Source: Eubacterium sp. 14-2 (lineage in GTDB: Bacteria; Bacillota; Clostridia; Lachnospirales; Lachnospiraceae). From it: a stretch of 64,000 bases of DNA. The stretch is taken from contig NZ_KE159567.1 of NCBI RefSeq assembly GCF_000403845.2, forward strand, positions 1,186,911-1,250,910, written 5' to 3'. A model generated the notes under the pieces. The model saw nothing but the letters and a program-made list of their open reading frames with translations. It was not told where the DNA came from and searched no databases. Made by a program: the position numbers and the translations under genes. This document shows, in pieces, positions 46,079-48,363 of the stretch. Numbering within the stretch: position 1 is the first letter of the stretch; each line of letters begins with the position of its first letter.

Positions 46079-46510
46079 CTACCACTTTAAATCCTCAATA
46101 TCAAAACTTTCTGTTTTCAAATCACAATAATATCTGCCTTTTATTGCAGTAAATTTTAATACACAGTAATCCGGGTCAGTTACGCCCTGTTTATAATACA
46201 TGGTATCCCCGGTACGCCAGATTTCCCGCTTCGTTTTATCGTCCTGCAGGACTTCCATTGTACCAGTTAGCATTATGCCCTCATATTTGAAGCGTCCCTT
46301 ACTGAAAAAATAAATACTTGCCTTTGGATTTTTCATAAACTGCCGGGAGCGCATAGCGGATGTATTGGTTGAAAAATAAAAACAGTTTCCTTCAATCCTG
46401 CGTGGTGCAAACATTGCTTTTATATTGGGGAAACCATCTTCATCTACGGAAGCAATAAATGCCACTTTTTGTTTTTTAATAAATTCAATGATATGTTCTC
46501 CTGTTTTCAT
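46079..46510 (-). CDS. pyridoxamine 5'-phosphate oxidase-like flavoprotein
   Basis: 143 residues with the split-barrel flavin fold: KVAFIASVDEDGFPNIKAMFAP (first strands), FSTNTSAMRSRQFMKNPKASIYF, and the final YYCDLKTESFDIEDLKW. Small members of this family bind FMN or F420 and often act as reductases of unknown substrates. GAGAGGAGCATTTCC is upstream. It forms a two-gene unit with the MarR regulator (24 bp apart), which probably controls it. Confidence 0.85.
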   Translation of the reverse strand: MKTGEHIIEFIKKQKVAFIASVDEDGFPNIKAMFAPRRIEGNCFYFSTNTSAMRSRQFMKNPKASIYFFSKGRFKYEGIMLTGTMEVLQDDKTKREIWRTGDTMYYKQGVTDPDYCVLKFTAIKGRYYCDLKTESFDIEDLKW

Positions 46511-46534
46511 CGGAAATGCTCCTCTCTGTAAAAA

Positions 46535-46984
46535 TTATTTGTCTGTATGCAGATTTTCAGTCAGGGTTTTAAGTATTCGAGCAAGATACCGCTCAAATTC
46601 TCTTTGTTCTTCTTCTGAAAAGCCCTGATAAAATAATGCGTTCATCTGCTGAGATACCAATTCATATTTTTCCTGTAAAGATTTTGCATACTCAGTGAGT
46701 GACACAATCGTTTGCCGGCGATTGTGGGGGTTAATATTTCTTTCAACAATTCCCTTATTTACCATTCCATTTATGACAACAGATACGGTATTTTTTGCAA
46801 GAGAGGTTTTTTCACTTATTTCACTGATCGTAAGATTATCTGTTTTCCATAGAATAAATAAAATCCGTCCCTGCCCGCCGCTTATTTCAATGCCGTTATC
46901 AAGGAGTAACCGTTCAAAAATCCTGTCCTGAAGCTGTTTAATCTGTGTAATATAAAATCCACCTTTCGTTTCTATGGTTGTCAC
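46535..46984 (-). CDS. MarR-family transcriptional regulator
   Basis: 149 residues from GTG 46984, with ACAGGA 6 bases upstream; a longer frame to 47047 crosses the promoter and is unlikely. Winged helix: LTISEISEKTSLAKNTVSVVINGMVNKGIVERNINPHNRRQTIVSLTEYA (about residues 52-101). It probably represses itself and the downstream flavoprotein: the perfect palindrome TTCTATATAGAA lies just after its -10 box. It is at the left side of the invertible segment. Confidence 0.88.
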   Translation of the reverse strand: MTTIETKGGFYITQIKQLQDRIFERLLLDNGIEISGGQGRILFILWKTDNLTISEISEKTSLAKNTVSVVINGMVNKGIVERNINPHNRRQTIVSLTEYAKSLQEKYELVSQQMNALFYQGFSEEEQREFERYLARILKTLTENLHTDK

Positions 46985-47004
46985 CTCAATTCCTGTTAGA
47001 ATAT

Positions 47005-47024
47005 TTCTATATAGAACAATTATA
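47005..47024 (-). promoter_or_regulatory. MarR promoter element and palindromic operator
   Basis: On the minus strand, TATAAT (47024-47019) is followed within two bases by the perfect 12-bp palindrome TTCTATATAGAA (47005-47016), which would cover the transcription start. A textbook MarR autoregulatory layout. No good -35 box is seen; the sequence upstream is a T8 run. Confidence 0.7.
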
Positions 47025-47147
47025 TCAAAAAAAATTTGGAAGATCAATCTCCAGGCTGAAATTTTTCATTGTGTAATTCTCAAAAAGTAATATGCGCGGA
47101 GTCTGCCCATTTTGTTTCAGATCTAATAAAATGGATATACTAAAAAA

Positions 47148-47174
47148 TGCAACATTTCTTACAAAAATGTTGCA
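47148..47174 (+). repeat. left recombination site (also terminator-like)
   Basis: Ten-base arms TGCAACATTT and AAATGTTGCA, perfectly inverted, around the 7-base spacer CTTACAA. T6 follows on the plus strand and, on the minus strand, also T6, so the site doubles as an intrinsic terminator in both directions. Confidence 0.8.
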
Positions 47175-47193
47175 TTTTTTCTTTACAGTTCTT

Positions 47194-47220
47194 ATATCGG
47201 AGCTTCTCTGAAAAACTTTA
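47194..47220 (-). promoter_or_regulatory. sigma-28 (flagellar) promoter inside the invertible segment
   Basis: On the minus strand TAAAGTTT (47220-47213), 11 bases, TCCGATAT (47201-47194). The enterobacterial consensus is TAAAGTTT-N11-GCCGATAA and the Bacillus SigD one is TAAA-N15-GCCGATAT: the -35 is exact and the -10 departs at only the first position from the Bacillus form. It points left, out through the left site, away from flagellin. It lies in the 75-bp gap after the recombinase stop. Confidence 0.75.
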
Positions 47221-47249
47221 GCCCCTGGATTCATTTTTCAGGATAAAAT

Positions 47250-47831
47250 TTATGACAAATCAATTTTCATAAAAATGGAATCCCGCTCATCCTGTTCAAT
47301 TCCCAGATATTTTTTGGTTACGCCATAAGAAGAATGATTGAAAATATCCATTAACAGAGCAGGCGGAACCCCCTGTTTCCATGCATGATAGCCAAAGGTT
47401 TTGCGGAGAGAATGGCAGCTCACATGGGAGGTGTGCAGTGTTTCTTCTGCCGCTTTTTTCATAATACGGAAGGCCTGAGAACGACTCAGAGGCCTTCCGT
47501 AATTGGTTGTTTTGGTAAAAAGATAATCTTCCGGAGCCGGATTACGGCTTTTCATATAGAGCTTCAGTGTTTCTTTCAGGTGGTTATTCAGCGCCACGAT
47601 ATTTTCTTTTCCGGTTTTCTGTTCCCTGAGAAACAGATGGTCTCGAAAGCATGTCCCGTCAAAATCATAAACGTCTTCCCAGTTCAGATTCAGAATGTCG
47701 CTGATACGCAGGGCGGTGTGCAGCCCAAACAGGACCAGAGAATAGTTTCTGATGTTGGGCTGGCAGTTCTGATAGTAATTCAGAAATTTTTTCAGTTCAT
47801 CTTTTCCGCGAATTGGTTGTGTTGTTCCCAT
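47250..47831 (-). CDS. tyrosine site-specific recombinase (FimB/FimE-like size)
   Basis: 193 residues, catalytic domain only, without the N-terminal core-binding domain of XerC/D. All catalytic residues can be placed: R42 (TALRISD), K72 (QKTGK), H140-SL-R143 (CHSLRKTFGYHAW), H166 (NHSSYG) and Y175 (KKYLGI). FimB and FimE, which flip the E. coli fim promoter, have the same size and layout. GGAGGTATGAAAT precedes the ATG (47831), and the right site lies just beyond. It is probably the invertase for the flanking sites. Confidence 0.9.
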   Translation of the reverse strand: MGTTQPIRGKDELKKFLNYYQNCQPNIRNYSLVLFGLHTALRISDILNLNWEDVYDFDGTCFRDHLFLREQKTGKENIVALNNHLKETLKLYMKSRNPAPEDYLFTKTTNYGRPLSRSQAFRIMKKAAEETLHTSHVSCHSLRKTFGYHAWKQGVPPALLMDIFNHSSYGVTKKYLGIEQDERDSIFMKIDLS

Positions 47832-47848
47832 ATTTCATACCTCCGTTC

Positions 47849-47875
47849 TGCAACATTTTTGTAAGAACTGTTGCA
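47849..47875 (+). repeat. right recombination site
   Basis: Ten-base arms TGCAACATTT and AACTGTTGCA (one mismatch) around the spacer TTGTAAG, which is the exact reverse complement of the left spacer. The whole site is the reverse complement of the left site with one mismatch. It lies 17 bp upstream of the recombinase start, in its leader. Confidence 0.8.
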
Positions 47876-48063
47876 AAAGTTTTTTCTTATGTGGAAAAGT
47901 CTTTCAGCTTTTCTGTGCAGGAAAAATCCTTCGGATTTTCCATGTGATAAAAGTTTACCACGGTAAAGTGCAGGAAAACAGGATTTTCCATTGTGGAGGA
48001 AATGTGCGGCCTGCAGATTCAGAAAGAAGTCTGGATTTCGCAGGAGAGAACAGGAGGTTTAAA
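47876..48063 (+). promoter_or_regulatory. csrA leader with GGA hairpins
   Basis: Two hairpins share GTGCAGGAAAA (47916-47926 and 47968-47978). The second, GGAAAA-CAGGA-TTTTCC (47973-47989), shows GGA in its loop within ACAGGAT, like a CsrA binding site. No sigma-28 or good sigma-A promoter for csrA is visible in this stretch, consistent with dependence on the invertible promoter. Confidence 0.5.
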
Positions 48064-48363
48064 ATGCTGAAATTATCGGTAAGACCAGGGGAATATGTGC
48101 TGATTGGAGACGATATCAAGCTGGTATTTGCGGGAGGCAGTTCCAACAATCTGCGGATTCTGATTGATGCCCCCAGAGCTTATAACATTGTGAGAAGTGA
48201 AGCGCTGGAGCGTTACGGTATGGCGGCAGATCCGGGCAACGAGGTAAAGCATTACCGGGACAGAGAAATTTCCCCGGAAGCAAAGGAAAAAATCAAAGCC
48301 ATTCTTATGGCGGAGCGCAGGAAAGCGCGCAGGGAAGAGCGGACAGCAGAGTTACACAGGTAA
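48064..48363 (+). CDS. csrA: carbon storage regulator CsrA
   Basis: 99 residues from ATG 48064 (ACAGGAGGT upstream). MLKLSVRPGEYVLIGDDIKLVF followed by RILIDAPRAYNIVRSEALERYG corresponds to the CsrA fold, with R-type contact residues at both ends. It binds GGA-containing mRNA and blocks translation; in Bacillus its target is flagellin mRNA, and FliW antagonises it. Here it directly precedes flagellin. The usual partner fliW is not in the window. The protein is longer (99 vs about 74) owing to a basic C-terminal tail. Confidence 0.88.
   Translation: MLKLSVRPGEYVLIGDDIKLVFAGGSSNNLRILIDAPRAYNIVRSEALERYGMAADPGNEVKHYRDREISPEAKEKIKAILMAERRKARREERTAELHR

Follow-up and report, generated by a model that had tools for sequence, protein, structure and literature searches.

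The fljB promoter of Salmonella is dependent on sigma-28. The hin/fljBA system of that organism is described as an inverted segment that contains both the fljBA promoter and the recombinase and that flips flagellin expression (PMC9368917), with hin lying within the inverted DNA (PMC2784873), a segment length of 966 bp (PMC5903667) and a recombinase, Hin, of the serine class (PMC3798978). In the fim system of E. coli the segment that flips carries a promoter and is inverted by a small tyrosine recombinase; the recombinases FimB and FimE lie outside it (PMC2784873). The flagellar and cwpV switches of Clostridioides difficile, which depend on RecV, have a segment (154 bp in the flagellar case) without a promoter, with the promoter upstream and recV elsewhere, and a terminator logic has been proposed for the OFF state of cwpV (PMC5386303, PMC2784873), a switch reported to be ON in about 5% of cells (PMC2784873). 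Providencia stuartii has a fimbrial inversion of 844 bp that encloses a recombinase gene between 14-bp imperfect repeats (PMC5903667).

The locus described here lies in a window of 64,000 nucleotides (the whole stretch of DNA analyzed) from the gut bacterium Eubacterium sp. 14-2, and it shares something with each of these systems. As in hin/fljBA, the recombinase gene and a flagellin promoter are inside the segment, which at 728 bp is of the same size class, but the recombinase belongs to the tyrosine family (PF00589) and not to the serine class, and the co-oriented partner gene is CsrA-like, whereas the fljBA unit encodes a repressor that acts on the other flagellin. The likeness to fim is that of a small tyrosine recombinase and the promoter-bearing segment it would flip, with the difference that the gene is inside the segment rather than outside. 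With the RecV switch the locus has in common a tyrosine recombinase, a flagellar or surface target and a proposed terminator logic; here, however, promoter and recombinase are both within the cassette, and the candidate terminator consists of a recombination site and a fixed outer T-run. The Providencia stuartii inversion likewise lies close to genes for a surface appendage and has a recombinase gene enclosed, but it concerns fimbriae, has imperfect 14-bp repeats and comes from another phylum. The original prediction stated that no described switch was known to have its recombinase, flagellar promoter and both sites travelling together beside csrA and flagellin. This was overstated, since the layout itself is known from hin/fljBA, and what sets the locus apart is its recombinase class, its csrA-like partner and its host group. 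In our literature search, whose reach largely excluded subscription papers, no account of such a switch in Lachnospiraceae came up. The text of an earlier study of flagellin promoters in Eubacterium and Roseburia notes sigma-28 promoters; the terms recombinase, integrase and phase variation are absent from it, and invert appears once. The cassette has the inverted repeats around a promoter that are expected of an inverton, and it may already be catalogued as one in the 2019 PhaseFinder study.

We interpret the locus as a self-contained invertible sigma-28 promoter cassette, sequenced in its OFF state, whose recombinase would flip the promoter of the csrA-like and flagellin genes, and we assign this interpretation, drawn from sequence comparisons, a probability of roughly 0.85. 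It can be envisioned that the recombinase breaks and rejoins the DNA at both 27-bp sites, with the exchange spanning the 7-bp core, and that everything between the sites, the recombinase gene included, is inverted. In the arrangement as sequenced, the promoter faces away and its transcript would probably end at the distal palindrome and the outer T-run, leaving flagellin OFF. Inversion would turn the promoter to the right, from where it would, presumably with sigma-28, transcribe the CsrA-like gene and flagellin via a leader of about 228 bases, giving the ON state, in which the CsrA-like protein might in turn control the flagellin. The support at the level of the sequence consists of the anatomy of the locus, its conservation including that of the promoter, an identity rule for the cores, which covary across loci, and the presence of both orientations across related species; with these, an invertible promoter in the OFF state, as originally proposed, is still the best reading. 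The features are collected in Table 1.

Table 1. Coordinates of the cassette and the adjoining genes within the window
Feature	Position	Strand	Remarks
csrA-distal recombination site	47148..47174	none	TGCAACATTT-CTTACAA-AAATGTTGCA, 27 bp, perfect 10-bp arms
Core of distal site, CTTACAA	47158-47164		covariation across loci
csrA-proximal recombination site	47849..47875	none	TGCAACATTT-TTGTAAG-AACTGTTGCA, 27 bp, 1 arm mismatch
Core of proximal site, TTGTAAG	47859-47865		
Six T outside distal site	47142..47147	-	putative terminator U-tract, ending the OFF transcript that runs leftward
A-run inside distal site	47175..47180	-	pairs with the T-run and lengthens the hairpin stem; conserved in 7 aligned relatives
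Tyrosine recombinase, 193 aa	47250..47831	-	PF00589, 99.4 bits
Sigma-28 promoter match, TAAAGTTT-N11-TCCGATAT	47194..47220	-	faces away from csrA-flagellin (OFF)
Leader from proximal site to csrA-like gene	47876..48063	+	contains the conserved AACAGGAGG ribosome-binding region
CsrA-like gene, 99 aa	48064..48363	+	PF02599, 59.9 bits; first gene of the predicted switched unit
Flagellin gene, 649 aa	48514..50463	+	Flagellin_N 149.1 bits, Flagellin_C 98 bits; presumed switched product

The segment from 47148 to 47875 is bracketed by inverted 27-bp sites that share a 7-bp core, and encloses an intact tyrosine recombinase gene and a strong sigma-28 promoter match beside csrA-flagellin, and to this extent the original prediction was confirmed in the sequence. 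Its 10-bp arms held for the distal site, while the single mismatch in the proximal site had gone unmentioned. The two sites match at 26 of 27 inverted positions and form the sole inverted 27-mer match in the 64-kb window (at most 4 mismatches, 30-1200 bp apart), where this one pair was picked up in 7 registers that overlap, with 0 in 5 block-shuffled windows. Across the 4-Mb genome the pattern TGYAACN15GTTRCA is present in 5 places, 4 of which belong to this cassette and to a second one, described below; the reversed-pattern control gave 0. On inversion the promoter would come to lie at 47803-47829, about 20 bp away from the 47822-47849 first suggested, and an assumed start near 47836 would then be 228 bases from csrA and 678 from flagellin, in keeping with the anticipated distances of about 230 and 680. 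Within the csrA leader (47876-48063), a stretch near TTTTACCACGG is conserved in close relatives. To the left of the cassette (46079-47047 of the window) are genes for a MarR-type regulator and a PNPOx-like protein, in the place of which the related genomes G018 and G028 have a CAAX-protease gene.

The window recombinase has the complete R-K-H-R-H-Y catalytic set of the tyrosine family (R42, K72, H140, R143, H166 and Y175). When compared with two NCBIfam models of tyrosine-type DNA invertases, which we take to be those of FimE and FimB, it scored 46.5 against a cut-off of 222 and 39.5 against 221, and by these curated cut-offs it is not a member of FimB/FimE. No convincing conserved promoter was seen for the recombinase gene itself, the start of which is only 18 bp from the proximal site. 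Close relatives of the recombinase exist within the genus and the wider family. Matches at E 0.001, general integrases included, were present in 96 of 99 sampled genomes, and matches at E 1e-40 in 30 of 397 sampled genomes of the family, the window's genome counted. Relatives were confirmed in named genomes in 150 cases, the best 80 of which include those in Lachnospiraceae bacteria A2 and 3-1, Petralouisia muris and Roseburia faecis. From 141 distinct copies gathered, we set aside 44 without csrA in the stretch examined; of the 97 with a csrA hit, another 8 were set aside because the hit was over 400 bp away, which left 89 copies, the window included, with csrA at no more than 400 bp. The catalytic residues are invariant across the 141 copies save the tyrosine, which is kept in 140. 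Seven recombinase relatives (L105, L107, L109, L113, L114, L116 and L117) have neither csrA nor flagellin in the vicinity, nor a site pair that convinces, and L114, L116 and L117 adjoin genes read as ATP synthase subunits. A phage origin was considered and set aside, as the recombinase had no relative in the viral contigs searched (one pattern match, unconfirmed).

The cassette turned out to be neither a chance arrangement nor confined to this genome, as many relatives carry it, nearly always in the OFF orientation. In 78 of the 89 csrA-linked copies the own flanks contain 27-mers that match in inverted orientation at 21/27 or better, where 445 shuffles peaked at 20, and in the other 11 no site pair was found; at a match of at least 24, the own flanks gave 62 of 89 and flanks paired across loci 32 of 1059. 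The seven central positions agree within a locus in 99-100% of cases and across loci in 26-57%, and the agreement of the arm positions within a locus is 61-100%. Within a locus, 77 of 78 in-frame pairs have the same core throughout, as do 116 of 6162 cross-locus comparisons. In the total of 78, 11 csrA-linked pairs that were out of frame have been replaced by 11 from other cassettes, and the selection of pairs at 21/27 raises core identity somewhat, the arm positions serving as internal control. In two held-out sets, the first of 26 loci (12 without csrA, 4 without a pair, 2 duplicates and 8 new pairs) and the second of 50 loci with 17 new pairs, the core was identical in 7 of 8 and in 17 of 17, counts that, like those of the main set, come from copies related to each other and do not represent independent events. 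The exceptions to the rule are L126 in the main set and L203 in the later one. Such covariation of the cores is expected of a strand exchange over a 7-bp overlap that has to be the same in both sites.

Inside 67 of the 78 cassettes, in the interval from recombinase to site, there is a sigma-28-like promoter, which points outward in all 67 (shuffled segments: 8 of 1560); the other 11 site-paired copies gave no promoter match. The promoter of the window is among the blocks conserved in 7 relatives, and the window's genome encodes sigma-28 (264.1 bits; cut-off 189.6). A relaxed sigma-28 pattern has 8 matches in this genome as against 1 for the control, two of them in the two cassettes and one preceding flgM-flgN. 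Elsewhere in the same genome, a full sigma-28-type match (L188, G000:C1:1570423-1570448) has no recognised flagellar gene or site pair beside it. With respect to the recombinase, the promoter is on the 3' side in 63 copies and on the 5' side in 4 (L054, L164, L171 and L177), and the latter layout is also found in L211 and L213.

With regard to csrA-flagellin, 63 of the 67 promoters face away (OFF) and 4 face toward it (ON: L108, L151, L164 and L175), and the later sets added 7 and 17 more in the OFF orientation and none in the ON, for an overall ratio of about 87 to 4. Three ON loci were compared with relatives (L132 with 4, L108 with 3 and L175 with 2), and in each case the recombinase is in the opposite orientation while csrA-flagellin is direct. 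L132, which is ON by orientation, has one degraded site (best pair only 20/27) and is possibly locked ON. The ON loci are from metagenome assemblies. No pair of genomes in opposite states was found within one species, in a sample of one genome per species. A comparison of the distal flanks of five ON loci with those of other csrA-linked loci revealed no orthologue, with one L151 ORF at 26-31% identity, and an extended comparison around three ON loci revealed no orthologous distal flanks either, apart from a 29% match at L271/L273; a distal ORF of L266 has matches at 35-40% in L267 and L269, on the far side of the flagellin there. Because no ON/OFF pair has orthologous distal flanks, the flip is seen against one flank only, and together with the lack of an opposite pair within a species this leaves some small room for insertion in either orientation. 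Two further lines were tried and given up: a direct match of 45-55 bp to the left of L151 spans little beyond the site and the T-run, and contig breaks at the sites, considered as a sign of mixed populations, were limited to 2 of 78 loci (L112 and L028, 16 bp past the distal site), which is too few.

The predominance of the OFF orientation would be expected if flagellin is selected against in the gut, or if flips are rare, and since cwpV is ON in so small a fraction of cells, a strong OFF bias is not unusual. The excess could also mean that inversion has been lost. It can then be argued that the cassettes are remnants of an ancestral switch whose flipping was lost in most species, with csrA-flagellin silent or otherwise expressed, and the 63 to 4 bias followed by 24 more OFF and no ON, the degraded site of L132, and the frameshifted recombinase of the second cassette in two relatives are all in line with such decay. 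However, the core is identical between the two sites of a locus and yet varies between species, which would need continuing constraint, and the catalytic residues and the promoter have been retained, so that we regard decay as an unlikely explanation. The direction of the promoter could alternatively hint that it serves an RNA or gene reading leftward on the distal side, to which it faces in 63 of 67 copies, and that csrA-flagellin is driven by a fixed promoter of its own, for which there is a weak sigma-70-like match over the csrA start (48037-48065, 9/12). But the distal genes are not conserved, the distal site resembles a terminator and ON copies exist; moreover, the sigma-70-like scan gave 6 sites in the region where 2.9 are expected, so a single weak match means little. 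We give this alternative hardly any credence, and the invertible promoter is the reading that we follow below.

Among the 67 promoter-bearing copies, the 8 positions of the outer flank have on average 6.31 T on the distal side and 2.19 on the proximal side, and the distal flank is T-rich in all 67, the four ON copies included. For all 78 pairs the values are 6.24 and 2.14, against a background of 2.53 further out, and the distal outer flank is the more T-rich of the two in 78/78 pairs and in 8/8 and 17/17 of the later sets; the distal flank of L216 has only 3/8 T. As this T-rich flank is outside the cassette, it would stay put on flipping and mark the OFF side. In the window, the minus-strand fold of the OFF transcript (47190-47134) has an energy of -17.9 kcal/mol and a z of -5.40, with 0 of 200 shuffles as good. 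The ON junction of the window also folds, with T nearby (-13.6 kcal/mol, z -2.68), so the terminator contrast is weaker in the window than in most relatives. A consensus terminator scan of the region did not list the distal site, which it probably missed as the stem takes up the T-run. The distal site may double as the terminator of the OFF transcript, a point that is new and that looks good for the cassette family and weaker for the window locus.

The fixed position of the T-rich flank also bears on the notion that the cassette is a mobile element with its own promoter, which inserts either way round, its sites being the ends of the element and flipping not its function. The distal neighbours vary even among close relatives (MarR/PNPOx in the window, the CAAX-protease in G018 and G028), the recombinase is also found without sites or csrA nearby, and ON and OFF loci lack orthologous distal flanks, all of which such an element would account for. 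Yet 89 of the 141 distinct copies have a constant place beside csrA-flagellin, the T-rich flank is csrA-distal regardless of the direction of the cassette, and the viral contigs searched held no relative, and we consider a mobile element highly improbable in comparison with an invertible promoter.

The partner gene, which had been taken for csrA, passes the Pfam cut-off (PF02599, 59.9 bits against 27) but falls below those of NCBIfam (30.4 against 73 and 27 against 70.1), and by these scores it is better called CsrA-like than a canonical CsrA. The same genome has a second such cassette (L039, G000:C1:217427-218253, sites TGTAAC..GTTACA), with a recombinase 51% identical to that of the window and a sigma-28-like promoter that faces away; it adjoins a gene for a 570-aa protein with Big_2 domains. 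The counterparts of this second cassette in G028 and G018 (L084 and L085) have the recombinase in two frames and retain the promoter together with one site or more. At L044, L081 and L082 a short site pair adjoins csrA, with start-to-start distances of 152, 190 and 423 bp and the recombinase just outside; bigger segments of about 2.3-2.5 kb, which enclose the recombinase and further ORFs, are seen at L046, L166 and L173.

In L140 (5918-6678), the recombinase and its sites are between two divergent flagellins that are 79% identical, the outer flanks CTGATCTT and TCAGCCTT are both free of a T-run, and one of the flagellins is faced by a promoter match of lower strength (score 2.5). The absence of a T-run on either flank is what a two-way toggle would need, and L140 is possibly such a two-flagellin toggle. 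A broader scheme can be put forth, in which tyrosine-recombinase flagellin switches extend across Lachnospiraceae: a distal site with a T-run would end the OFF transcript, a proximal site without one would let the ON transcript pass, cassettes with cores of their own would flip independently, and L140 would toggle both ways. We see the chances of this scheme being right or wrong as about level. Cores were shared in 0 of 16 within-genome pairs (10 genomes) and in 59 of 2987 between genomes; given the latter figure, a separate core for each cassette is only consistent with independent flipping. That cores are kept private within a genome was dropped as a claim, as about 0.3 shared pairs were expected where 0 of 16 were seen, which is not significant.

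If the core rule holds as interpreted here, natural variation would be enough, with no experiment, to locate the 7-bp crossover core in this family of recombinases, and it would also offer a set of possibly non-cross-reacting inversion sites. For the organism, the presence of further flagellin genes in the window's genome suggests that the switch would probably change the make-up of the filament and not motility as a whole. Flagellins of gut Lachnospiraceae are described as pro-inflammatory in cell tests for some members (PMC3720852). If an accessory flagellin is under a heritable ON/OFF switch, which in assembled genomes is mostly OFF, this would explain variable flagellin output from an unchanged gene content, and the selection of OFF cells by antibodies could be tested by counting orientations in sequencing reads.
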